Assembly (NCBI GenBank): GCA_015501585.1
Contig: JADNRY010000200.1
Location: forward strand, 50,366-114,365
Direction of reading: 5' to 3'
DNA length: 64,000 nt
Source of the DNA: Rhodocollybia butyracea
Taxonomy: Eukaryota; Basidiomycota; Agaricomycetes; Agaricales; Omphalotaceae
Below, piece after piece: positions 20,713-45,728 of the stretch. Each line of letters starts with the position of its first letter. Within the stretch, counting starts at the first letter, position 1. The notes beneath the pieces are model-generated. The model saw nothing but the letters and a program-made list of their open reading frames with translations. It made no database searches and had not been told where the DNA came from. A program made the translations under genes and the position numbers.

Positions 20713-21059
20713 CATCAGGAAAAGCTGTTTTTGCCTAGGTGACCCAGAGTGGCCTAAAGCAAACTAGTTGACCTATGAATCCTATGGCATCCTAGGAATT
20801 TGGGCTCATACCTTGCCAGTCAAGGCTTTTGAGGATTCCCTAGGCAAGCCTAGGTTTGCCCAAGTTTGCCCAGGTGCTCCTGGGGAACACCTGGCACCTG
20901 GGCAAACTTGGGCAAACCTAGGCTTGCCTAGGGAATCCTCAAAAGCCTTGACTGGCAAGGTATGAGCCCAAATTCCTAGGATGCCATAGGATTCATAGGT
21001 CAACTAGTTTGCTTTAGGCCACTCTGGGGTCACCTAGGCAAAAACAGCTTTTCCTGATG
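20713..21059. mobile_element. Palindromic (foldback) MITE, copy 1
   Basis: The whole 347 bp is a near-perfect inverted repeat starting catcaggaaaagctgttttt and ending with its reverse complement, with the centre near 20886. A second member lies at 45729-46099. The flanks read cttcttagca before and caaaagagtgg after. The nearby sequence cttcttagcaaaagagtg shows what an unoccupied site looks like and implies a 2-bp duplication (CA). It has no protein, although its palindromy creates identical 65-codon frames on both strands. Confidence 0.88.
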
Positions 21060-22107: not shown

Positions 22108-22800
22108 TAGTGCACAAAAAGTCCGGTTCGGTCCGGTTCACACTGATATTTCAAGGACTGAGGACCGAACTTCTGGTCCGGTTCAGAAAAATTTCGGACG
22201 AAAGACTGGACCATTGGTCCGCCGGACTGCGTCCGGTTCAGGTTCTGAACGTGTCCGGACCCTGAACGCAAAATTCATTATAATTAAAATTCTATTACCT
22301 CCTAAATTAATCATCATAGTCAATCCCAAAATCTCCGGTAGATTGTTCAAACTCATAATCATCCAATGCAGCCATAAAATCTACAATATGTTGTGCCGCC
22401 TGCTGGGTTGCCGAAATGTGACCATTGCGATAAGCACTCTTTAAAATTTGGAGTGCTTGGAACATTTCTGGGCTCAGAGAGTTACGCACCTTAGTACCTG
22501 TAAGTGCACCACCTGAAAAAGCCCGCTCGGAGGGTGTTGCTGAGCCTTGAATTGCAAGATAGTCCCGTGCAATACGTGAAAGAGTTGGGTATGCATCTTG
22601 ATGATGCTATGTCAATTGTCAGTATTATCACTATGAAGTAATAGAACAAAAAAACTTACCCCCCACCAACGGACAACATCAAACTGTGCTTCACCCTCGC
22701 AAGGAATAGGAACTTCAAGGGCTTTTCAGGTAACGCTCCAGCTCTTCTTTTGGTGAGGTACTGATTGTACTGATGGATGCTTGGGCTCGGACAGCAGACA
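22108..22800 (-). pseudogene. hAT transposase C-terminus with 3' element end
   Basis: Minus strand. The open part ends KVRNSLSPEMFQALQILKSA and continues to a stop at 22307-22309. Upstream, before an apparent intron, the frame gives IARDYLAIQGSATPSERAFS. This is the conserved hAT dimerisation region (DYL-x-I-x2-S-x3-SER-x-FS ... R-x2-LSP). One apparent frameshift lies near 22720. Beyond the stop, the terminus at 22108 reads tagtgcacaaaaagtccggt with repeated ggtccggttc words, typical hAT subterminal repeats. The 5' half is gone: the sequence meets a gypsy LTR at 22801. Confidence 0.82.
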
Positions 22801-22979
22801 TGTTATGACCCGGATCTAAATCCTATACACCCAATCTTTTTTCTTCTGTAACCAACTATGAACACTATCATTAATACTTCTACTTAACATTTTACATTCA
22901 TTAGTTATTCAACACCATTTGGGTTAATGCTGCACACATTCTTCCAGAACACCAGAATGATCTTTAACAGTCACTGCAC

Positions 22980-23320
22980 AGTCTGCACAGTCATGACATC
23001 ATTCTAGCTCCACAACTATGATGTCATCTTGCTACTCTACAATCATGATGTCATTCCATTGCTCCGCAGTTATGATATCACATCACTGCTCCACAGCTAT
23101 GACATCATTGCATAGCCTCTTTACATCAATGACTCAATATCAGTCATTGCACAGCCAGATATCTGAGTCAACTACGGTTCCGCATACATGACTCAATATT
23201 AGTCATTGCACAGCATTACATAGTCAGACTGACTCATCCGCAGTATTTCCGCAGTTATGACTCAAATCTAGTCATTCCGCAGCATTTCCTAACTAGTACA
23301 CATTGCACAGTATATAAGTA
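22980..23320 (+). promoter_or_regulatory. LTR U3 enhancer-like array (CRE-like and TGACTCA words) and TATA box
   Basis: Words close to TGACGTCA (tatgatgtcat, catgatgtcat, ctatgacatcat) occur between 23020 and 23110. Bipartite palindromes of the form atgactcaata(t)cagtcat occur near 23129, 23187 and 23256, with further TGAGTCA and TGACTCA words near 23164 and 23230. These match binding sites of bZIP proteins of the Gcn4/AP-1/CREB type. TATATAAG follows at 23311. Regulation by such factors is inferred from motif content only. Confidence 0.5.
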
Positions 23321-23416
23321 GTCTAGATTTACCAATGTACGTGAGACGTATTATTTTTCTTAAATCCAAACCCCCACTTGTTTGCTGTTATCACTTGTGT
23401 GAATCACCAGACCAAC

Positions 23417-23820
23417 TCATTGTATCTTGTTGAGCTATCTCCAAGCTACAATACACATTTATACATCTTGTTGAGCTAACTCCGAGTTGTATCCACTAAC
23501 ATTCACCTGTTGAGCTATCTCCTAGTGAATACTTCTTTAATTGCCACTTGTTGAGCTATCTCCGAGTTGCAACTTCCTATTACTTGTTGAGCTATCTCCA
23601 AGTATTAGACATTACACTCACTATTACTTGTTGAGCTATCTCCGAGTATTAGACATCACACTCACTACTACTTGTTGAGCTATCTCCGAGTATTAGACAC
23701 CACACTCACTACTACTTGTCGAGCCAACTCCGAGTATTAGTTCTGATTCATATTACTGCTTGTCGAGCCATCTCCAAGGGTAATCTTATTATTATTTGTC
23801 GAGCTATCTCCAAATAATAA
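23417..23820 (+). other. Array of ten stem-loops with fixed core and co-varying stems
   Basis: Ten units share the core G-T(T/C)-GAG-C(T/C)A(T/A)-CTC-C. Each is flanked by 9-nt arms that pair with each other but differ between units: TTGTATCTT/AAGCTACAA, ATACATCTT/GAGTTGTAT, ATTCACCT/TAGTGAAT, TTGCCACTT/GAGTTGCAA, CTATTACTT/AAGTATTAG, TTATTATTT/AAATAATAA and others. Inside the core, GAG pairs with CTC around a 4-nt loop, leaving a 2-nt bulge (TT or TC). The array is downstream of the TATA box, so it should be transcribed as part of the 5' leader. The 3' LTR carries nine of the ten units at 33317-33677. Confidence 0.85.
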
Positions 23821-24043
23821 CTTCTGTGAGTTTTGTATTACAAACTAGTTACTAACTTTACTTGAGCCTAGTTGTTTGAGTATATATTTTTTGCCTAGCG
23901 GTTTCAACAAACGGAAAGGCTTGCTCTATAATCTCATTAATTTCTCTTATCATTTTTACTGCTGAGTTACGTACTGTGAAGGTTTGGACGAGACTATTGA
24001 TCGAGTCATAACATAATAATACGTCTCCACCCGCCCCCATTAA

Positions 24044-27000
24044 ATGTCTACACAAACAACTAGAACCCGCACAGGGTCTCACCAGAACCCTCAAACATTT
24101 GTTCAAGGATCTAGTATCCAAACTATTCCAACTGGTTTTAATGCTCCAGGATATACACTGGGACAAGACATTTCCAATGTTGGAAATACCAGCAATTGGA
24201 CACCCACTGATATTTCAGAAGGTGAAGTTGTAGTAATGCGGAGAGTTCATATTGGATCAAATGGATCAAATTTCAGTGAAACTGTGGTTCAGGAAGTTAG
24301 AGTGCCTACTACTGCAGAAATTGCCCAGATCTTTGCTCGTCATGATGACCATTCCACCAGTCATTCAGTTGAACGTGGTTCGCGAGGACAACAGCAGCAA
24401 ATTCCTGATTTTGCAACAATTATACCTCTACCTTCTTCATATCATAGTCATTCTGCACAATCTGATGCACACAGATCTCAAAGCGGACAACCTCCAAGGC
24501 AAAGCAGGGATATAATTCAGCTCTCAGAACCAGAACAAAATCCTTCACCTAGCCACCATTCATCACCTGTACCATCAATTAACAGGAATGTATCTCCTCA
24601 AGCAATTGCTCCGAACAGATCAGATACACCAATAATTGAACTCTTTGACTCTTTACATGCACAATATAGAGCTCAACAGTCAACTGTAAGACCAGGTACA
24701 TCACCTGTCAGAGGATCACCAAAGTTGTCTGTAGTTCCTGAGGAAAGCCAAGAGCATTTTATTGCTCCTAGTAACCCACCTCATGGGTCTACACCTTGGC
24801 AATCTCACAATTCTCAGTCAGACCATAATGCTTTAAGTGCCATTAGGAGTTCAAACCAGTCACAAGGACATGAACAATTGCCTGTTCAACCACAAGTTTT
24901 GCAACCAGTTTTAACTGTCAGGAACATCCCATCACCAGGTGGATCTTCCAAAAGCTCAGTAAAAAGCTCAGCAAAACAAGGTTCCCATAAGTCAAGCAAT
25001 AGTGTACCAATTTTGAACCAGCTTCAAAATGAACAAACACAGTTTGACAGACTTAGTCAACAATGCCAAAAATTCTTAGAGTCACTAGGCTATAGAAGCA
25101 GTAGTGCTCAACCTTGGCAATGGGTTCAGCAGTTGGAAAGACTAGGTCAGAGAGAGCTTGCATTACTAAGTCCAAGTCTGTATCAGCGGATATCAGATGA
25201 AAGGAATAGTCAAATGTTAACATACCTATATGATGAGACACAAAGGAATGAAGTTCAAGTTCTACTGAGGGCAAGAAGTAGCACTAGCATGGAATTAGCA
25301 CCTTCTGTTCATATGAGCCAGACGGCCAAAGTACAGGAAAATCCACCAAGTGTTCACACACCAGTGCAAACACCACCAAAAGCAGAAGTTCTGCCAAGTG
25401 CACATGCCCCCATGCAGAGAAATCAATTTATTGAGAACACAAGAAATGTGGAGGAAACTCATGTTCCACTTACAGAAAGGAACTCTAGACAAAATGAAAG
25501 CCCTAACAAGACTGACAGAATTCTTGCCTGGACAAGAAGGGTTCAGCCACCAAGCCCTCAAAATGTTGAGATACCAATTATTCAACCCACAACACATATG
25601 CCATTAGCAACTAATCCTGTTGAAAAAATTGAGCAAGTAGTGAGAAATGAACATCAACATGATCACTCTAGGACTCAATTCCAACGAGATGAACCACCTC
25701 ATGCAAGTGGTAGTCATGTGCTATTGGATCAAGGGAAAAGAAATACCAGACTTAGAAGCAGAAAGGAAAATTTTGCAATACCTACAAAATATGAACCTGC
25801 CCAAGCCTCAACAAGTCAGCAAGTATTTCCTGAGACACAAGTTAGAAAACCTACAATTGATTCTCCTCACATTCCAATGCCTATCCAATCTCCTGTGAAC
25901 CTGGTAGAGCCAACACCATTGCTTACAGAGCATCATAACCAGCTTCCACAGACTCATAAGAACAGTGTACCTAGACCTTTAAGTTTGAATTGGGCTGATG
26001 AAGCAAATGAATTTTTGCCAATCAATGGTTATCCATTCATCCCAAACAAAGGCAAGACACCAGTTCAAGCATCAGGAGGAGTGCCACCATCACCCCCACC
26101 ACCAGATGATCCTGGCAATCATAGTGAAGGGGATGACCAAAGTGGAAGCAACAATAACAGAAACAATTCCCACAGGAATGGCGGACCCAATGGACCCCCT
26201 CCACCACCAAATGAAGGTGGACCTCCAAAAATGCCTTGTGGAAGATCTAATTGTTGCTGTTGTAAAGATGGAAAAGATGGAAGAGATGGCAGGGATGGAC
26301 GTGATGGCAGAGATGCCAATGAACGCGATCCAGAAAGAGAGGAACAGAAAAGAAGGAATGAAGAAGCCACTAGAGCTCTGACAAGAGAGTCAAAACTTGA
26401 CATCAACAAACCAACACCATTTGACGGATCTAACAGAGCTGCTTGGAGAGCATTTTTAAATTCAGTACTGATAATGTTCAATGCAAAGCCAATGACTTAC
26501 TCTACAGATAATTCTAAAATTACATTTGCTGCATCATACCTTACAGGAGCTGCAGCAAAGTACTACAATAATCTAGTAGAACAACAGGCCAATGGAGAGA
26601 ATGAATCCTTCATTCCAGCATTGAATATCTGGTCTGAGTTTGTTAAGTTGTTTGGACGCATGTTTGGTCTCCATGATGAGAAAATGCATGCTCAGTCACA
26701 ACTAGACAAATGTCTACAAGTCCCCAGGGAGTCATTTGCAGACTTTTTAGTCAAGTTTGAAGATATAGCCAATCGCACTACTTACAATGATCCCGCTAAG
26801 AGATGGAGACTTCTGAATCAGATCCGGCCAGATTTGCGCAACCGCCTAACAATGGTTGGGAATTTGCCAGAAACATATCAGGATGTTGTCAATAGACTAC
26901 TAGATATTGATGGTGCACGAGAAGCATTCAATGACTCTGGACTCGGAAACAATTTCAGCAGTGGAAACAATCGAAATACAGCCACCAATAACCAGCCTAT

Positions 27001-27502
27001 TGACCGCAATCAGTCTGGAAATGGTTACCGCACATCTGCAAACACAACTTTCAATCAGAATAATCCACCAAATAATCGCCCAACACAAGTGCAACCACAG
27101 GCAGTCACCACATTCAATAACACACAGACTCAACGACTACCTACTAGAATGAATCAAAATAATTCTAGAAATAATAATGTCAATGAGGCACCAGCTGTAG
27201 TAAGAATGGCATGGGTCACTCAAGAAGAGTATGACCAAAGACGCGCAAAAGGGGCTTGCACTTACTGTGGTGAAATGGGTCATTTTGCAAGGACTGCCCA
27301 CAACGGCGCAATAATGCATCAGGTCGAGCCACATTTATGGACACTTCCAGTGACGCACCCAGCAATATTATGCTTGAAGTTGAAGATGAAATCTTGGATA
27401 TTGACAGCACACTCTTGGAAGGAGGCATTGAAGGGGAGGAATATGAAGATCTCGACCAGGGAAACGCCCCGACGACTCAGGAAGAATAGGGGAAACCTGT
27501 AG
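24044..27502 (+). CDS. Ty3/gypsy Gag with long low-complexity N-terminal extension
   Basis: An open frame of 1152 codons, ATG 31 bp after the LTR. Residues 1 to about 730 are Ser/Gln/Pro/His-rich with no domain. About 731-760 is a Cys-rich patch followed by a collagen-like (G-R-D)n run. About 783-965 is the retrotransposon gag domain ([20 protein letters not shown] ... [17 protein letters not shown]). An Asn/Gln-rich linker follows, then a zinc knuckle start C-T-Y-C-GEMGH at about 1071. The final knuckle cysteine is lost because a base appears deleted near 27291; the other frame continues with D-C-P-Q-R-R and an acidic tail to a stop near 27489. Gag forms the particle and binds RNA. The long extension is unusual for chromovirus Gag. 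Confidence 0.85.
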
Positions 27503-27626
27503 TCAAAATGATCATACCCCAATAAATCTGCTTGCAGTACAAGTAGACACACCACCAGCAATTATTTCTTCAATTTCTCTTCATTCATTTGTTATTCACA
27601 CTAAATTATTCTCTGAAGACTCACAG

Positions 27627-29054
27627 ATGTACCATGCACTTGTTGATTCTGGTGCTTCAAGGTCATTTATTGATGAATCTTTAGCAAAGAAATTTCCTCA
27701 CCATATTCACAAACTTCCATTTTCAATCCCCTTAAAGTTATTTGATGGAGAATATTCATCAGCAGGAAACATTACTTCAGAATTCACTGTAAAATTATTA
27801 TATGAGGATGGATCCAAACATGATCTCACCTTGCTTGTTACTCACCTACATCCAGATGCACCATTAGTTCTAGGATTCCCATGGCTACAGAAGTATAACC
27901 CACAAATTGACTGGGCAAACTTAATGTTCTCATTCAATGGAGGAGTTAAACTTGCAGCAGCAAAAGTCACTGACATTGAAATTCCAAGGCTATCATACAG
28001 GACACACCTTAAACCAACAATTGAGGAAGTTACTGAGCCAGTAGAGAATGTTCAACCAGGACTCGGCCTAGATGACCCACTATTGCTTCATGTGGATGAA
28101 CTAGAAGATTACTTTGTACAAAAGACATTTGGACATATTCAAACAGAACACATTAGAACCAGTTCTCAAAAATCAACTGAAACTCACCTCAAAAATCAAA
28201 AACACAAACAACAAGAGAAACCTATAATACCAGAACCAAACCCAGATTCACCATCAAAACATCCATTTTCCGACAAGAAACCACCGTTGGTTAGTCTTAT
28301 AGGGGCACCAGCCTTTGCAAGATTAATAAAAGATGGATGTCCAACATTTACTCTCAACATCTCACCCACACATGAGATAGTTGACATCCGAGGAGCAGCT
28401 ATGCCAAGCAAACCTGTGGCTAAAGCGCAAGGTCAAACAGAAGTACAACCTAACTCAAAAATTTTATCAGAACAGGAAATGTTGGACAAAGTTGTTCCAA
28501 AAGAATACCATCAATGGGCTAAAGTTTTCTCAGCTGGAGAAGCAAAAGCCTTACCACCCCACCGCCCTTATGACCTCAAAATTGAGACTGAAGAGGGTAA
28601 ACCTTTGCCACCAGCATCAAAAATTTATAATCTGTCTGAGACAGAATTAAAGGCCTTGAAGGACTACATTGATGATATGTTAAGCAAAGGCTTTATTAGA
28701 GCATCAAGCTCACCAGTGGGAGCAGCAGTACTATTTGCAAAAAAGAAAGATGGATCACTCAGAATGTGTATTGACTACCGGGCACTGAACCGCATTACAC
28801 TAAAAAACAAGTATCCACTACCCTTGATTGGAAATTTGATTGATAGATTAAGAAAGGCCAAGAAATTCACAAAACTGGACTTACGCGCTGGATACAATAA
28901 TGTCCGGATTGCAGAAGGACATGAGTGGAAAACTGCTTTCAGAAGCAGATATGGGTCTTTTGAGATGTTAGTCATGCCTAAGGTTCACGGTACCAAATTC
29001 AGGTCTATACAGACCACAACAACCTACAATGGTTCACTACCACAAAGATGCTGA
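27627..29054 (+). pseudogene. Gypsy Pol: protease and truncated reverse transcriptase
   Basis: The frame is open from before 27560; the first ATG is at 27627. The aspartic protease motif [12 protein letters not shown] lies near the start, with V-L-G-F-P-W-L downstream. The reverse transcriptase shows [11 protein letters not shown], then [40 protein letters not shown] and [11 protein letters not shown] (first catalytic Asp). It breaks off at FEMLVMP. The normal continuation F-G-L-x-N-A-P, the YxDD box and most of RNase H are missing. Sequence immediately rejoins an RNase H end (V-Y-T-D-H-x-N-L in another frame) at about 29010. An internal deletion of an estimated 0.6 kb or more therefore removed the polymerase active site. 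The copy cannot reverse transcribe on its own. Confidence 0.85.
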
Positions 29055-30757
29055 GCCGAAGACAAGCCAGATGGGCTGAATTCTTATCTGGATTTGATTT
29101 TGTCATTAACTATAGACCAGGACGGCTGGGAGCTAAGCCAGATGCACTCACCAGACGGGCAGATGTATATCCCAAGAAAGCGGCACAAGCGCTTATGAAT
29201 GAGGGGAATACAAAGATACTCATCCGGCCTGAACAATTGATGGCTTCTGTAATAATGCAAGATGAAATTCATTTGAATAAAATCCGAAAAACTAAGAAGG
29301 ATACATACTGGCTTGAACATGAAAAAATAGCCAAGTCCAAGGATCCAGGACCCTTCAAAGTTGAGAGTCAGCTCTTGCTTCGTGATGGTCTAATATATGT
29401 TCCCAATGATGGAGACTTACATCTGGAAATCTTAAGAATGTATCATGATCACAAACTCAGAGGTCACCCCGGAATTCAAAAAACAATGAAGCTAATCAGA
29501 GAGATGTATTACTGGCCTGGTATGAAGAAAACCGTGAGAAACTATGTACGGACCTGCCATGACTGCCTGCGCGCCAAAGGGAGCAGAAGAAAACCATTTG
29601 GGGGACTCAAACCCTTACCTATAGGTAATAGACCATGGTCATCAATTTCAGTTGATCATATAGTTGAACTACCAGAGTCAAATGGATTCAATGCTATCAT
29701 GGTAGTAGTATGCAGACTCACCAAACAAGCTATTTTTGTACCATGCCACACTACAGACACAGCAACTGAGTTAGCAAAGTTGTTTATCAAGAATGTATTT
29801 TCAAAACATGGCTTACCTACAGACATAATCTCAGATAGAGGAACCACATTTGTATCCACTTTCTGGAGAACTATATGTCAAGCCTTAGATGTGAAGTTGA
29901 ACTTTTCAACAGCCTACCATCCCCAAACTGATGGACAGACTGAGAGAGTCAACCAAACACTAGAACAATATTTAAGATTGTTTGTCAACTATGAACAAAA
30001 TGACTGGGAAGAGTGGTTACCTATTGCAGAATTTGCCTACAACAACACACCTGCAGAAGCAACAGGAGTATCACCCTTCTTTGCAAATAAGGGATTTCAT
30101 CCAAAACTCACTGTTTCACTGAAGTCACTCCCAAATCACCATGCCCAACTAGTTGCAAAGGATCTTCATGAACTTCATCAATTTCTAAGACATGAATTAA
30201 TGACCACCAATGAGATATCAACAAAATATGCAAACCGAAAAAGAGAAGACACACCTGATTGGAAAAAAGGGATGATGGTTTGGTTAAACATGAGAAATAT
30301 AAAAACCAAGAGACCTATGAAGAAATTGGACCATAAGAGAATGGGACCATTTGAAATTCTGAAGAAAGTCTCAACCCATGCATACAAACTAAAGTTGCCT
30401 GTAAACTTTGGTAACATTCACAATGTGTTCCATGTGGACCTACTAACACTGCATGAATCTGAGTCTGATCAATTCCCAAACCGCAAACCACCTCCACCTC
30501 CACCTATTGAGATTGAGGGTGAAAAAGAGTATGAAGTAGAACAAGTACTTAACTCACGGAGAAACAGACAAAGGTTTGAGTACTACATCAGATGGGAAGG
30601 ACACCCGCCTGAGGAAGACACCTGGGAACCATTAGTCAATGTGCTAAATGCCAAGGAAGCACTAAACACATATCACACACTTTACCCAACAAAGCCCAAA
30701 CCAACAGACAGGGAGCTTGAACGTGCTGAAGAGCTCAGAGAGAGGGACAATGGGTGA
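29048..30757 (+). CDS. Gypsy Pol: RNase H end, integrase and chromodomain
   Basis: 569 codons. It begins in the RNase H C-terminal block ([20 protein letters not shown], then [14 protein letters not shown]). The integrase zinc domain follows (H-x4-H ... C-H-D-C near residues 140-176). The catalytic core has SVDHIVELP, then DRGTTF and [17 protein letters not shown], giving the D, D and E residues. Near the C-terminus, [20 protein letters not shown] followed by R-W-E-G-H and D-T-W-E-P is a chromodomain, so the element is a chromovirus, whose integrase is expected to target histone-marked chromatin. The frame is intact here although the upstream pol is deleted. Confidence 0.9.
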
Positions 30758-30962
30758 TCAAAATCAATACATTCAAAGAAAAAATAAATAAATCCTACAA
30801 TGGCAACCCCTAAGAAAAGAAAATAAATTAAAAACAAGGAACAAGAGCTACTTGAGCAAGAGGAAAGAACAGAAAATAATATACAAACAATAACTTAAAG
30901 AGGACAATAAAGGGGGGATAAGCCATAGAAAATCTTACAAAAAAGTGCAATAAAATACAATA

Positions 30963-31900
30963 TCAGTCCAGGTCTGCTAGGCAGATCATTGTAGGGGAAT
31001 GAACAGACACCACCAATGAATCAGAAGAAGATAGTGGAGAAGGGAGATCATGAATGTGTGGAAAGTCGGGAGAGATTTCCCAGCTGTTTGAGAAAGTGAC
31101 AGCAGAGAACTGTGTAGCAAAGCCTACTGGATCGGACACTTCTTCTTTAAACTGCTGCAGGGCACCATAAATCTCATCTGAGGTGTATGATAATTGATCC
31201 TGGATGGTGCTAACCATAGCAAGAACCGCAGAAATCCTCCTAGACCAGGTGTTATCCCTTTCAGAATTAGCTTTATCATGTAGCTCTTCAATCAGAAGAA
31301 AGAGAGAGTATATATCGTCGATGATAGCTTCAAGAAAGGGCTGAACATCAGCCTGTGCATAGCAGGCCAAACCGTTTGCAAGACGCTGGAATCAAACAAC
31401 ATTCATGACATATCAATAACATTATTGGCAGGAAATACTTACTTGACGATCACGAATTAATTTAGCCTGGGTATCAAGAAAATCGGGATATCCGCTTAAT
31501 CTGCGGTCATTCTGAAGATCAGAAATCTCGGTAACCAGCTTCTTGTTGTTCTGTTCAAGACTTTGAGAGTACAGTTGCCAAGCTCTGGCGCTGTCATGAT
31601 GTTCACGGCCATTCTGCATCAACTCAGTGATAGTTCTACCAATAAACCAAGTCAGAAAGATTATTTAACAGGAAGCAATACAACATACCGGTCTCGCTTC
31701 ATTAATTCATCCCTGATCCACCCCAGGAGACCATTGAGGTCAGTTGCAGCTTCAGGTGTTGAAAATTGGGCAAAGAGACGAGAAGCGGCAGGATGCAGAT
31801 ACAATTGTGTAAACATTACCAGCGAGTTTGCGGTGTCATCAATAGGAGAAGGAAATCCAGTAGTAGACAGACTGGAAGGGTTGTTATGTGTGGAAGACAT
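30963..31900 (-). CDS. Spliced antisense gene carried inside gypsy element 1, 275 aa
   Basis: Three exons on the strand opposite to gag-pol, 31900-31689, 31635-31443 and 31385-30963, join with phase kept across introns of 53 and 57 bp (GTATGT-TAG and GTAAGT-CAG). The product is 275 aa (MSSTHNNPSSLSTTGFPSPI ... MICLADLD), mostly alpha-helical in composition, with helix-rich stretches such as LEQNNKKLVTEISDLQNDRR that could form a coiled coil. A TATA-like ctatttaag lies about 45 bp before the ATG, followed by a C/T tract. I do not recognise the family. The location between the pol stop and the polypurine tract means it travels with the element. Antisense extra ORFs are known from some plant gypsy elements; in fungi I cannot name an example. 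Confidence 0.7.
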
Positions 31901-32810
31901 GTTGTTTGAGTTGGAGAAAGAAAGAAAAATTGATACAGCTTAAATAGCAGGGAGTTTTCACACAAACCCAGGACAAGACACAACTTCAATCGATGGGTTT
32001 CGAGCCAACATGGGTTGAAACGGCGAGTCATTAACTCATGCTCACTGATTTTTCCGAAAATACAAACACAAAGTCCCGGAAACCGGAATAAACATGAGAT
32101 TTAACTGCCCATTTAAGTTAGAATGCTCACTAATACACTCGGAAATAGACCCGAAACTCCACAGAGATGATTAGTTTCGAGTCTGCATGAGATTCAACTT
32201 CCATTTTAATATTTATTGCTCAGTAATCAGCTCGGAAATGAACCCGAAACACCAGATGTGGAAATCTCAAAGACACTCCAAACTCGAAACCAATTAATGA
32301 CGCCACAAAATGAAATCTGTGATTAGCTGTGATGCACTCGAAACCTTACTCGACCAATGGCATCAAACACTCCCATGTATCCCACCAATCAGCCGCTACT
32401 CATAATGACCATCATATCATTGATACACGAACAATTCCATACAATCAAACAATCATGATGGCTAAAGTAAATCTGATCCATGGACATAAGGATACCGGCG
32501 GAAACGCCAACACATCACAATCATGATGCCAATGCAACATGTGATTTGCCAAAGTTGGCTTTGACAGTACTCGAGCGGGACAAGCGCAAAATCACACAAA
32601 CCCGGCAATGCCGCCGCTAGCACTGAAATGATGGGCCGCCACACCTGTTCCAATTGACGTGAAATATTCATGTAAACTCGAAACATGAATAACAAGCTCA
32701 AAACTCAACCAATTACATCCAAATAAAATGCCACAGTGACAGAATATTTGCCCAAATCCATAAATGGCCTCAGAGGGTTTCGGCCTTAAGCGGGGGGTAC
32801 TGTTATGACC
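31901..32810. other. Non-coding 3' region of gypsy element 1 with 93-bp repeats and polypurine tract
   Basis: Two imperfect direct repeats start catgagatt(t/c)aact at 32093 and 32186, each containing ctcggaaat(a/g)(g/a)acccgaaac. Related pieces are found before and after. These lie upstream of the antisense gene and could be its regulatory region. A purine-rich tract, aagcgggggg, ends just before the 3' LTR (32788-32807), as expected for plus-strand priming. No gene is supported here. Confidence 0.55.
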
Positions 32811-33869
32811 CGATTCTACACTATAGGCATATACACACTCTTTTTTCATTTATTAACAACCACTACTATCATTAATATTTTACCACTTAACACTATCACA
32901 TACATTCATTACTTATCTTCTCAACACAACTTTGGATAATGCTGCACATTACCATGGAAGCTGCAAAGACCCTTCCACACAGTATTGACTCATTATTAGT
33001 CAACTCCGGTTCCACTAAATGACTCAATATCAGTCATCCATGACTCTACTGAATGACTCAACATCAGTCATCCGCAGTTCCGCTTAAATGACTCAGTAAC
33101 AGTCATTGCACACCATTCCACAGTCATGCTGACTGATCCGCAGCATTTCCGCAGTTATGACTCAAATCTAGTCATTCTGCAGCATTTCCTAACTAGTACA
33201 TATTAAACAGTATATAAGGAAGCCAGATTTACCAATGTACAGTAGACGTATTATTTTTCTTAAATCCAAACCCCCACTTGTTTGCTGTTATCACTTGTGT
33301 GAATCACCAGACCAACTCATTGTATCTTGTTGAGCTATCTCCAAGCTACAATACACATTTATACATCTTGTTGAGCTAACTCCAAGTTGTATCCACTAAT
33401 ATTCACCTGTTGAGCTATCTCCTAGTGAATACTTCTTTAATTGCCACTTGTTGAGCTATCTCCGAGTTGCAACTTCCTATTACTTGTTGAGCTATCTCCA
33501 AGTATTAGACATCACACTCACTATTACTTGTTGAGCTATCTCCGAGTATTAGACACCATACTCACTACTACTTGTCGAGCCATCTCCGAGTATTAGTTCT
33601 GATTCATATTACTGCTTGTCGAGCCATCTCCGAGGGTAATCTTATTATTATTTGTCGAGCTATCTCCAAATAATAAGTTCTGTGAGTTTCGTATTACAAA
33701 CTAGTTACTAACTTTACTTGAGCCTAGTTGTTTGAGTATATATTTTTTGCCTAGCGGTTTCAACGAACGGAAAGGCTTGCTCTATAATCTCATTAATTTC
33801 TCTTATCATTTTTACTGCCGAGTTACGTACTGTGAAGGTTTGGACGAGACTATTGATCGAGTCATAACA
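32811..33869 (+). repeat. 3' LTR of Ty3/gypsy element 1
   Basis: 1059 bp, beginning TGTTATGACC and ending GTCATAACA. TATATAAG is at 33211. Nine stem-loop units lie at 33317-33677. The 3' half is nearly identical to the 5' LTR, but U3 differs: the CRE-like words of the 5' LTR are absent and there are extra atgactca...agtcat repeats. The right flank (ataagcccac) and the left flank of the 5' LTR (cagcagaca) show no shared target duplication and belong to different disrupted genes, so this may not be a simple single insertion. Confidence 0.88.
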
Positions 33870-35118
33870 ATAAGCCCACTTAAGGGCGACGTCATCCCAC
33901 CCTGTCATTGCCGCCAAGGTATTGAATCGGGTGTTATACTTCCAAACCTGTTCATTCTCCTTCATCCGAATATTACCGAGTTTATCTTCGGCTTCACCCT
34001 GGGCATCAAAAAGACCGAAATGGTCTTGAAGTTCCTTCACAAGTGCCGAAAAGGAGTTCATCCATGCCAGGGGGGTTTATCGGGTTCAGATCCAGGATGT
34101 CCGGTACAAACCATTCCCAAGCGGATCCGCTAAGGAAGGAAAGAGCATACATGACCTTTTTCTGGTCAGTGAAGTATGAAGGGCGGTCAATAAAGACAAA
34201 GGAAAGGGAAACGAGAAACTCCTTGAGTTTCCGAGGTTCAGAGCCGTCGAAAACATCGGGCTCCTTGACTTTGGCTTTGCCTTCCGATGGTTCGGTTGAC
34301 TTGCCACCGAGGAGGGTCAAAGCATTTGCGATGGAATCGATAGATCCTCCGAATTTGTCCATTAGTTCCAATACTGCACCGGCATCAGGCTGGCCGTGAG
34401 CATCGAGAAATCTACCACTGCGGTGGGGACCGCCGGGGGGACCACCACCACCACCATTACCTGGGGGAGGGGGCGGAGGAGGACCACCACCACCACCATT
34501 ACCTGGGGGAGGGGGCGGAGGAGGACCACCACCACCACCACCACCATTACCTGGGTCGTCCGGAGATCCAGGGGGTCCAGGAGGATCAGGGGGAGCATCC
34601 CCATCATCACCATCAGGGTTGTTAGGAGGGTCATCGGGAGGATTGTCGGGAGGATTATCATCCGGATTCTCACCTTCATCTGCAAATCCTCCTTCTCCTG
34701 TGTCCTCTGGTTGTTCGACAATCGGAGGCCGGTCGTCACCCGTAGTGGTACGAGATCGGTTTGAGAAGAGAGCTCCTTGGAGCTGTTCGGCAAAGGAAGG
34801 GGAAGGTGCCGAAGCAATCCTTCCGCGACGAGGGGTAAGGACTAGTGCAGTACCACTAGCACTGGGCATTTCCTTAATATTGTATTGGTCGACATTGATG
34901 TTACCTAGAACTGCCTCAGTAGAGACAGAAGTGTTTGGAACAGCTGTTGCGGGTCCGAAGCCACCCGAGCCACGTCGGTGAGGGTTTCCGGCCGCAGAAA
35001 TAGAATCATTGTAAGGCACAAATGACTGAGCATTGGCCACAAAGGGATTAGGAGTCTCGGTTGGCTGGATCCGAGTCTCAGAGACTGTCCGAATTCTAGG
35101 AGGTTTTCTTGGAGGCAT
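33870..35118 (-). pseudogene. Gag of a second Ty3/gypsy element (opposite orientation), truncated
   Basis: The start MPPRKPPRIRTVSETRIQPT is at 35118. A Pro/Asp/Asn-rich region follows, then glycine/proline tandem repeats (PPPPPPPGNGGGGG, encoded by a roughly 60-bp repeat at 34437-34555). Next come VKEPDVFDGSEPRKLKEFLV and the gag domain. In a homopolymer C run near 34072 the frame shifts by one base and resumes as NSFSALVKELQDHFGLFDAQ with G-E-A-E-D-K-L, ending at 33870 where the LTR of element 1 begins. The protein is cut inside the gag domain and no pol remains. The gag type (VFDGS ... F-L ... YALS-x-L-x-G-x-A) is typical of basidiomycete gypsy elements. Confidence 0.82.
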
Positions 35119-35150
35119 TTGTTTAAAAAAAACAGTTTTGTCAGATACGG

Positions 35151-35816
35151 TGTTAACGAGTACAAGTTTAAATATACTGTTAAGATCGTGCAAGACCAAA
35201 GGGACCTGATCGTATCCGAAAGGTATGAATTGACGAAGTAGGTCTCGGACCGATATCAGAGATCAAAGAAGAAGTGGGACGTGCGGTATAGCTATTAGCT
35301 AGACCCTCGTCACGCCGAATAGTCCCGAGATGAAGTTCAAGAGACAAAGATAGATTCGGCTGATGTAACGGCCGACGAGTAAGACGGAAGAAGGATAGAC
35401 TAGGGCGGAACTTAGTCGGACAGAAGGTCTGGTTTATCCAAGTTGATATTTAAACTGAGGACTACTGTACAAGGTTGTACTACTTATATACTAAGAGTCC
35501 GGGGCTTCCGGATCGGTAGAAGACAATAGTCGGAAACGTATACGGAAGACCGAAGTAAGTAATACAATCATAAGACAATAATACTCAATAGATCGGAAAG
35601 GGAATATAATCGAAAGATAATAAGAACCAATTAGAAAGTAATCCGAAAGGTCCAATGGCGGTACGTCATCGGACGAAGATAACAGATAAGATAGGAAGAT
35701 AACGAAAAGAGATAAGATGACAGAAATAGACGGGATGGAATCGGAATGGTGCTGGGATGATAGTAGAGGTGATCCGGCGATGAACCGAGGGATGCCGATG
35801 CGGCATGGTCGTAACA
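35151..35816 (-). repeat. LTR of Ty3/gypsy element 2
   Basis: Read on the minus strand it begins TGTTACGACC at 35816 and ends CTCGTTAACA at 35151, 33 bp before the gag ATG. A TATATAAG box lies near 35484 in the expected orientation. Ends and TATA context resemble element 1 (TGTTATGACC ... TATATAAGTAG), so the two are related, but this LTR does not carry the stem-loop array. The far end was chosen from the inverted match of the termini, not from a second LTR copy. Confidence 0.6.
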
Positions 35817-43763: not shown

Positions 43764-45728
43764 CACTCTGATAGCGATAGCTCATCAGATGAGGAGGTCA
43801 GTGCAAAAGTTGCTTCCACCTACTCAGAATTTCCCTCTGTCTGTCATTCAAGTTCTGATTCTGTCCATGTCTTTATCTCCACTGATGTTGCCACCTTCCT
43901 TGCCAAGACAAGCAACAATGAGAGTTACATTGACTCTGGGTGCTCTTGCCACCTAAGTCCACGTCATGACTGGTTCAAACATAGTTTGTACACCAAACTC
44001 GACAAACCTGTCCCCATTCATCTTGGAGATGCATCTACCATTTACGCTGTTGGTAAGGGTACTCTTCAGTACCTCATGGATACGCCAGATGGAATCATCA
44101 CTGGTTTTCTACCCAATACGCTACACGTCCCAGATCTCGCCGCCACTCTGATTTCTGTCTCTCAGCTCACTGACAAGCGCAAACACACCATTCTCTTTGA
44201 TGGAGAGGAGTGCTTTGTCAAAGCTCGAAGCTCCGGCCGGTGCGTTGCGTCTGGTCGCAAGACCAAAGGAGGTCTTTACCTTCTTCATGCCCGTCCGCTG
44301 AAATCCCAAGAGTACGCAAATCTTGCTACCACATCCCGCTATATCGACATTAATCATGCTCACCGCTGCCTAGGTCATCTCGGTCAAGACAACATAAAAC
44401 GTCTGATCGCAAAAGGCATGGTAACGGGCATTGATGAAGTGGGAGGTCAAATAGAGTTCTGCGAGTCGTGTACAGCCGGTAAACAGCATGTATTTCTGTT
44501 CCCATCATCCAATAAAAGGGCCTGTTGGAAACTAGATTTAGTTCACTCCGATGTTTGCGGTCCATTACCCAACTCTATCAATGGTGGCTATAGGTATTTC
44601 ATCACCTTCATAGATGATAACACCCACCACTGCTGGGTTTATTTCCTCCATCACAAATCGGAAGCGTACCGATGCTTCCGCGAGTGGAAGGCTATGGTAG
44701 AGCTCGAGACTGGGCTTAAGCTCAAGGTTTTTTGTACAGATAACGGTGGAGAATATACCTCTGATCAGTTCGAGGATTATCTCCGTAACCTTGGTATTAT
44801 CCATGAAACCACAGTCCCTCACACCCCACGGCAGAATGGCGTTGCTGAATGCTTCAACCGCACTATCGTTGAGCATGCCAGATGCATGATGCATGATGCT
44901 AAATTTACTGCTGGGTTTTGGGTCTTCGCCGTCATTATTGCCATCTATCTCATTAACCGCTCACCTACCTCACGGCTTCCTAATTCTACTCCACACGAAG
45001 CTTGGTCTGGCATAAAGCCTTCACTCAAGGAACTCAAACCTTTTGGCTGTCCCGCCTATGCTCATATCCCCAAATCAAAGCGTACAAAGCTTGACTTTAA
45101 AACTCGTAAGTGCATCTTTCTTGGTTACAAAGTGCACACCAAGGGTTACCTTCTGTGGGATCCGAAGAAGCGAAAAACTTTTGTTTCATGAGACGTCATT
45201 TTTGATGAACGTCCTCACCCTCCTGGCCCGCCTTTACCCATTCCGGATCTTTCGCAGATCCTTTGCAATGGTGAGGTGCCTGGAGATGGCCTACCTGGCT
45301 TTTCTTGAGTGGGAGATGCGTGGAAAGATAACTCTCCCCCTGTGACTCCAGCGGTTCTGCATCCTCCTGCTCCATCTTCTGAGGTTGATTCTGAGGATAA
45401 CGTCGGTGACTCTCGCCCATACTCCCCTGATCTTCCTCCTCCCAATGACCCTCCACCGGCTCCACCTGCTCGCCATCGTTGTACAGAACTTGAACTTCTT
45501 GGGCCTGTTCCAGAAGTAGATGGTCCACGTGCTCGTCGCCTACCTGCCCGCTTCCGTGAAGAACCTGACATTGTGCCAGATCCTCCTGAAGCTGCACCAG
45601 GCAATAGACCAGATGTTGCAGAAGGTGTCGCCATGGCCTTTGTGGCCACTGTCCATGCTCAGGGAGTCTCAGAGCCCCGCACTCTGCAGGAAGCACTCCA
45701 CGGTCCTGACTCCGCCTCTTGGCTGAAA
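43764..45728 (+). pseudogene. Ty1/copia Pol part 1: protease, integrase
   Basis: Same frame as gag. Protease motif YIDSGCSCHLS is near 43930. The GAG-pre-integrase HRCLGHLGQ ... CESCTAGKQ is near 44360-44480. The integrase core has the three acidic residues in DLVHSDVCGPLP, CTDNGGEYTS and PRQNGVAECFNR. The frame is stopped by TGA at 45189-45191, where the family has S-R-D-V-x-F (an arginine CGA to TGA change fits), and again by TGA near 45307. It continues as a Pro-rich linker to TLQEALHGPDSASWLK, the start of the reverse transcriptase region. Here it is split by the palindromic element at 45729. Confidence 0.85.

Follow-up and report, generated by a model that had tools for sequence, protein, structure and literature searches.

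The long terminal repeats (LTRs) of a retrotransposon in the basidiomycete Rhodocollybia butyracea carry a tandem array of about ten short hairpins whose paired arms co-vary around a common core. The element lies within a window of 64,000 nucleotides, the whole stretch of DNA that was analysed. From comparisons among copies and related families, both the structure of the array and its location, in the leader of the genomic RNA between a putative self-primer and the primer-binding site (PBS), appear well supported. It belongs to a known kind of feature, the structured leader RNA that acts in cis in LTR retroelements, and has an unusual tandem form. An earlier note had described the hairpins; the self-priming, the sister families and the variable number of units presented here were absent from it.

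The array-bearing element

The element is a Ty3/gypsy chromovirus with a C-terminal chromodomain. Pfam matches above cut-off were obtained for Retrotrans_gag, RVT_1, rve, Integrase_H2C2, SH3_Tf2-1 and Chromo, and protease models scored below cut-off. The window copy is broken, its coding sequence being spread over several frames, and its main parts are as follows.

22801..24013, + strand: 5' LTR (TGTTATGAC...GTCATAACA), direct repeat with the 3' LTR; ends read from the sequence
24044..27502, + strand: gag open frame (Retrotrans_gag)
27627..29054, + strand: pol fragment, protease-like segment and start of reverse transcriptase; copy broken
29048..30757, + strand: pol fragment, integrase, SH3_Tf2-1 and chromodomain
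32801..33869, + strand: 3' LTR, direct repeat with the 5' LTR

The LTR end gave 363 first-look candidates in the genome (95.6 Mb), of which the 40 that were scored are 97–100% identical over nearly the whole query; one further match is only 36 nt long. Integrase copies of at least 94% identity were found on seven contigs among the 77 of 811 candidates scored. These counts suggest that most copies of the family are probably non-autonomous or solo LTRs around a few full elements. The sequence after the PBS aligns with the window gag start at 75–100% in all 24 distinct sequences read there, over a stretch confined to 264 and 62 nt in L033 and L041, respectively. The two LTRs of the window element differ in U3 type (22801-23343 versus 32801-33243) and are about 90% or more alike in their primer-to-PBS parts, so that the element looks like a mosaic.

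Several other features were observed. At 20743-21028 the window has a perfect inverted repeat, its arms 135 nt long and its spacer 16 nt, and a long palindromic stretch, seen by eye, lies 3' of another chromovirus integrase in the second half of locus L110. A Copia-type pol fragment (gag_pre-integrs, rve, SH3_retrovirus) is found at 43986-45191, and a retrotransposon-gag-like frame matching DUF4939 adjoins the 3' LTR (34006-35199, - strand). Among viral contigs, an exact 16-mer search returned 19 stretches and a 14-mer search at least 120, with one match in each of the 19 and in each of the 80 listed from the second search; both sets were taken as chance, and no relative of the integrase was found in these contigs.

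Structure and covariation of the hairpin units

The array comprises ten units of 32 nt in the 5' LTR (23420-23820) and nine in the 3' LTR, the same numbers as counted in the earlier note. They share the core G-T(T/C)-GAG-C(T/C)A(T/A)-CTC-C, and units 5–8 are near copies spaced at 44 nt.

23420..23451, + strand: hairpin unit 1
23461..23492, + strand: hairpin unit 2
23500..23531, + strand: hairpin unit 3, two mismatches near the apex
23541..23572, + strand: hairpin unit 4
23577..23608, + strand: hairpin unit 5
23621..23652, + strand: hairpin unit 6
23665..23696, + strand: hairpin unit 7
23709..23740, + strand: hairpin unit 8
23753..23784, + strand: hairpin unit 9, unequal internal loop
23789..23820, + strand: hairpin unit 10, no mismatch
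33320..33676, + strand: nine-unit array in the 3' LTR

The core pattern TTGTYGAGCYAWCTCC, with one mismatch at most, has 1710+1421 matches in the genome versus 6+8 for the reversed control. A covariance model (R1) built from units of the window family (family A) recovered 15 of the 19 units in the window plus a single chance site; missing from its listing, perhaps through overlap of neighbouring matches, are units 4 and 9 and the equivalent units of the 3' LTR.

Complementarity of the arms was assessed with 14 aligned A units (13 distinct). At the true register 88.2% of cells are paired, versus 39–49% after a slide of one to three columns. None of 500 shuffles matched the observed percentage paired, number of double-change cells or covariation score; the two remaining measures are weaker or flat, being matched by 7/500 shuffles (pairs changed on both sides) and 318/500 (further pair types). 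For the seven unit types that are unlike in both arms, only 4 of 5040 arm permutations pair as well as observed, and swapping the 3' arms weakens the hairpins, with a mean energy of -3.9 instead of -7.8 kcal/mol, the matched mean being reached by 2 of 42 swaps. The proposal that the structure is under selection is supported in family A by shuffles, slides, permutations and swaps, and it is also supported by covariation, with other arms, in the sister families described below. Individual hairpins are weak (-6.4 to -9.7 kcal/mol).

The details of the fold depart in part from the uniform stem with one mismatch that had been proposed, which fails for units 3, 9 and 10 as listed above. Likewise, ViennaRNA prefers a GAG/CTC inner stem beside a two-base pyrimidine bulge in just two units, both with a CYAA loop, the other 8 of the 10 favouring GA/UC with a 2x2 internal loop. 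Covariation is silent on the GAG/CTC stem because these bases are invariant among units. Across six unit types with 43–44 copies each, variable sites number 0/36 in GAG/CTC, 1/24 in the loop, 2/12 in the bulge, 7/48 in the inner stem, 8/84 in the outer stem and 5/18 in the flank, and several of the inner-stem changes preserve pairing as G-U.

In family A the number of units ranges from 4 to 18 among 46 distinct arrays, 33 of which have 9 or 10, and arrays cut by the end of a locus may be undercounted in this tally. The leader lengthens with unit number, measuring 512 nt with six units, 582 with eight, 624–631 (once 662) with nine, 669–674 with ten and 713–717 with eleven. One fetched leader of 1025 nt holds 18 units, showing that the array can nearly double in length.

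Such variation, together with the near-copy units 5–8 and the existence of an array-free relative (family C), could conceivably reflect a neutral or self-spreading tandem repeat, in which an old palindrome was multiplied by slippage or recombination and has no present function. However, the seven unit types that differ in both arms still pair, the B families show covariation too, and GAG/CTC is invariant in the copies read; we consider this explanation very unlikely.

A role at the level of DNA, with the palindromes acting on transcription or chromatin as protein-binding sites or cruciforms, seems highly improbable. The units do lie near the promoter and both LTRs carry the array, but the sense strand folds better than 100/100 shuffles (z -3.4) and the antisense strand does not clearly do so (14/100 shuffles fold as well; z -1.1). 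Moreover, the inner stems use G-U pairs, and the conserved block begins at the presumed RNA 5' end rather than at the promoter. The array core read in antisense also has what we take to be a likeness to the tRNA A-box. This candidate was rejected, as four stretches were scanned and their antisense strands showed no B-box, and as B1 and B4 have not retained the motif; in the same scan the sense strand of A gave a single B-box-like match.

Probable self-priming and the position of the array

The window element appears to prime its own reverse transcription in the manner of Tf1. The sequences on which this reading depends are the following.

23311..23318, + strand: TATA box TATATAAG, read from the sequence
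23344..23355, + strand: self-primer AGACGTATTATT, probable 5' end of the genomic RNA, from PBS complementarity, conservation boundary and sister-family compensation
24015..24026, + strand: primer-binding site AATAATACGTCT, one base past the LTR, reverse complement of AGACGTATTATT
33244..33255, + strand: self-primer sequence in the 3' LTR

A PBS complementary to the first nucleotides of the element's own mRNA is described for Tf1, Tj1 and relatives in the accessible parts of the literature (PMC4600332, PMC7175516). The same relation is found here, with the 5' end of the RNA placed by inference: the 12-nt self-primer begins 33 nt below the start of the TATA box, and its complement forms the PBS. 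All 31 distinct 5' LTR ends read are followed by the PBS, a count biased by the fetching of most of these loci with a query that included it, and 28 of the 31 have a primer recognised by pattern.

The pairing is maintained by compensatory change in sister families. In family B4 the leader carries AGACTTCTTATT and the PBS is AATAAGAAGTCT; the sequence ACATAATAAGAAGTCT occurs at 16 exact places in the genome, with 30+37 matches at one mismatch or fewer versus 2+1 for the reversed control. For family C, the leader sequence AGTCTCTATATT led to the prediction of ACATAATATAGAGACT as PBS, and the genome has this predicted sequence at 21 exact places, with 39+48 matches when up to one mismatch is allowed versus 2+0 for the reversed control. 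The primer differs between A and B at two positions and between A and C at five, every one of which is matched in the PBS. One B1 copy (L117) retains only the first 8 nt of the PBS.

Because of the pairing between self-primer and PBS, the array would fall in the leader of the genomic RNA, and the probable RNA 5' end near 23344 lies upstream of it. The earlier note had proposed this leader placement, and it agrees with the compensated pairing, the conservation boundary at A23344 and the lack of ATG in the leader. A transcription start below 23820, the case that the note had set against its own proposal, is made unlikely by the sequence evidence for an RNA 5' end near 23344.

In the unforced minimum free energy folds of the A and B4 leaders, the primer closes on the PBS and most hairpins stay as branches (z -4.7 with 20 shuffles and -3.1 with 100, respectively). 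The folded B1 stretch stops short of its PBS and is uninformative on this closure. From primer to LTR end the lengths are 670 nt (A, window), 525 (B1), 410 (B4) and 325 (C).

These folds raise the possibility that the hairpins are only a scaffold for self-priming, compacting a long leader so that the primer meets the PBS and RNase H frees the primer, with the apex serving the priming complex and not packaging. The array lies exactly between primer and PBS, and Tf1 priming is described, in the accessible part of the report, as requiring RNA structure around these two sites (PMC7175516). On the other hand, compaction alone does not demand an unvarying apex, and family C manages with a 325-nt leader that has no array. 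A U5-IR-like clamp stem of 8 bp beside or inside the primer duplex was not established, being marginal in A (shuffle frequency 0.034) and not significant in B4 (0.387), B1 (0.38) or C (0.122). A role restricted to priming seems rather unlikely to us, albeit worth serious consideration.

Conservation of the leader and absence of ATG

When 25 distinct copies carrying the exact primer are compared with the window, variation largely stops after a cluster of changes at 23341-23343 (seen in 8, 12 and 16 copies). Between 23344 and 23420 four positions vary, in 4, 1, 2 and 1 copies, the first falling inside the exact primer and probably representing a gap placed in a T run. Since this set was chosen by exact primer, conservation of the primer is by construction and the comparison tests its flanks.

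The 29 loci that have a 5' LTR and PBS show the same pattern on a larger scale. In 29/29 the 61 nt preceding the array match the window exactly, and the 189 nt after it are 97.9–100% identical, a range biased by the fetching query. In the outer U3 (22801-23060) the loci fall into types at 77–83% and 98–100% identity, and at the gag start identity runs from 61 to 100%. Both flanks have diverged and the leader has not in L033, L035, L036, L038 and L048. The conserved block, from RNA 5' end to PBS, would be the span copied by minus-strand strong-stop DNA; its constancy could be due to selection on the leader, to strong-stop DNA passing from one RNA to another, or to the two together.

The window leader, 700 nt from 23344 to the gag ATG, contains no ATG, where base or dinucleotide content would predict about 10; the U3 contains 15. 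Among 49 distinct A leaders whose primer was recognised, four LTR ends without such a primer having been excluded, 47 are free of ATG and two have a single one. None occurs in the B1, B4 and C stretches (6.4, 6.4 and 4.5 expected), and the 251-nt piece of B2 has one (3.7 expected); the shuffles made for these sister stretches were crude, with bases dealt out again in pairs. The array thus probably sits in a 5' UTR that is scanned by ribosomes, which speaks against an internal entry site. With weak hairpins and no ATG in the leader, scanning ribosomes could still reach gag.

Arrays in sister families

The comparison covers one genome and the leaders of A, B1, B4, C and, in part, B2, those of B3 and D being left out. 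Family B1 (C1149; 60% integrase identity) has eight hairpins (L116, 257-587) and family B4 (C521; 59–65% integrase identity) has five (L118, 112-326). Their arms are unlike those of A, and the apex is mostly of the TG-AGCNNTTC-CA type. In the 13 B units, 80.8% of cells pair versus 29–60% when slid, and no shuffle out of 500 equals the observed values for covariation score, percentage paired or double-change cells; two other measures fail to separate (82/500 and 250/500). Paired changes are seen between corresponding units, such as ACTTACTG/CAGATAAGT in B1 versus ACTTATTG/CAATTAAGT in B4. LTRs related to B1 (73–85% identity) were found at 29 further places among 40 of 52 candidates scored, 11 of the scored candidates being at 97–100%. 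The pattern CTGAGYNNTTCCAG gave 62+52 matches versus 22+10 for the reversed control, a weaker contrast than that of the A core.

The A and B arrays likely share an origin, to judge from their sequences: GAGC and a UCC end are common to the apices of both (A GAGCTATCTCC, B2 GAGCTATTCC). The covariance model from A units found no B unit. Dimerisation through Ty1-type kissing loops formed by AGCU was rejected; AGCU is present in A apices, and B1 apices read AGCG, AGTG, AGTA and AGCC. Pairing of the apex with the interior of the element was likewise rejected, five of seven 8-mers being absent and two overlapping ones occurring once each, at 24670-24671.

Family C (L115; 64% integrase identity, and so roughly as near to A as the B families are) has no such array in its 325-nt leader, of which one copy was read in whole; the leader folds with z -2.2, 1/100 shuffles being as good. 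As family C appears by sequence to self-prime, the self-priming signature does not need the array. The 2.6 kb 3' of integrase in five other elements are free of arrays, but this stretch is too short to be evidence of absence: LTR starts lie beyond or near its end in L113 and L114, and the LTR start is not settled for L110, L111 and L112.

Between pol and the 3' LTR, the window element has an antisense, coding-looking and apparently intron-bearing sequence (30963-31902, - strand), which is also present in L113, L111 and L114. Identity between antisense frames is 25% over 113 aa for A versus B1 (E 5.6e-5) and 29% over 170 aa for C versus D (E 8e-12); the window frame has no Pfam match above cut-off. 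By its sequence it looks like an accessory gene kept in this chromovirus group.

Candidate function of the array

Our leading explanation, held tentatively, is that the array forms a multivalent platform in the leader RNA, most likely for Gag/nucleocapsid, which also compacts the leader so that the primer meets the PBS. The hairpins would act as tandem RNA stem-loops in the R-U5 leader of a chromovirus with Tf1-type self-priming, their repeated apex (GAGCYAWCUC beside two pyrimidines, and AGCNNUUC-type in sisters) being bound many times over by a protein. Binding would mark full-length RNA for particles and would assist folding of the leader with its 5' 12 nt annealed to the PBS. Many copies of a constant apex, each carried on a stem that may change but stays paired and all located in an RNA leader, are consistent with repeated sites for an RNA-binding protein. 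Compaction is likely a second role in the models, as the unforced folds close primer on PBS with the hairpins as branches, and the hairpins would shorten the effective distance between these two ends.

As to the binding partner, we infer that it is most likely the element's own Gag/nucleocapsid. We favour this partner because the block occupies the very segment of the RNA that is involved in priming and because there is a precedent in the 5' RNA domain of Ty1, which serves translation, packaging and priming according to the accessible part of that report (PMC5454406). The presence of a Retrotrans_gag domain in the window element fits this reading, and the position and structure of the array fit a retroelement packaging signal, Gag binding being a prediction. 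Alternatively, the partner could be an RNA-binding protein of the host, with the array governing how the element RNA is exported, stabilised or translated, for instance by withholding it from ribosomes or the reverse. The fixed apex again suggests recognition by a protein, and an ATG-free 5' UTR is a place where translation could be tuned. The apex differs, however, between A and B families in one host, which partners belonging to the elements themselves fit at least equally, and we think a host partner unlikely.

A broader reading of the Gag platform is that it represents a new retroelement cis-module: a hairpin array of variable copy number in the leader of a self-priming element, movable as one block among subfamilies. 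We put this forward as a possibility that is itself somewhat doubtful. Since the array is wholly inside minus-strand strong-stop DNA, it could be moved as a block by strand transfer between co-packaged RNAs, and the subfamilies receiving it can differ in promoter (U3) and gag.

To our knowledge, the recognition by LTR retrotransposons of their own RNA, and the way in which a self-priming 5' end reaches the PBS, have been little mapped outside yeasts. In this one genome the leaders of related elements range from array-free through five, eight and about ten hairpins to as many as 18, so that dose and need are readable in natural copies. With apices that stay the same while the stems change, one would predict a protein that recognises the hairpins by sequence, and the constant block from RNA 5' end to PBS, with its diverging flanks, is a clear test case for strong-stop DNA exchange between co-packaged RNAs.

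Comparison with known systems

The earlier note knew of no described fungal LTR feature like the array. The literature titles and abstract openings searched describe no array of tandem stem-loops in the leader of a retrotransposon or in an LTR, subscription papers being mostly outside that search, and Rfam 15 covariance models gave no match at E up to 1 in window 22700-34000. The HIV-1 TAR hairpin likewise has a pyrimidine bulge beside a GAG/CUC-type stem near the RNA 5' end. It is a single hairpin with another loop, from another virus group, and the likeness is one of resemblance only.

Tf1 and Tj1 are, like the window element, chromodomain gypsy elements with a PBS complementary to the start of their own RNA (PMC4600332, PMC7175516). 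The complementary nucleotides number 12 in the window element versus 11 in Tf1/Tj1, and the former has tandem co-varying hairpins between primer and PBS, none being mentioned for Tf1/Tj1 in the accessible text of these papers. Ty1 also has a structured leader in which the 5' end pairs near or beyond the PBS and hairpins lie in enclosed loops (PMC5454406, PMC4974528). In contrast, it is copia-type and tRNA-primed, and the accessible parts of these reports describe single unlike hairpins and kissing loops, with no tandem array. Plant Retand-type arrays sit between pol and the 3' LTR, with no RNA stem covariation described in the part of the report available (PMC11963269), whereas the window array is in the leader. 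The Retand-type elements resemble the present one in having short tandem repeats of variable number inside the element and an antisense ORF between pol and the 3' LTR (PMC11963269, same part).
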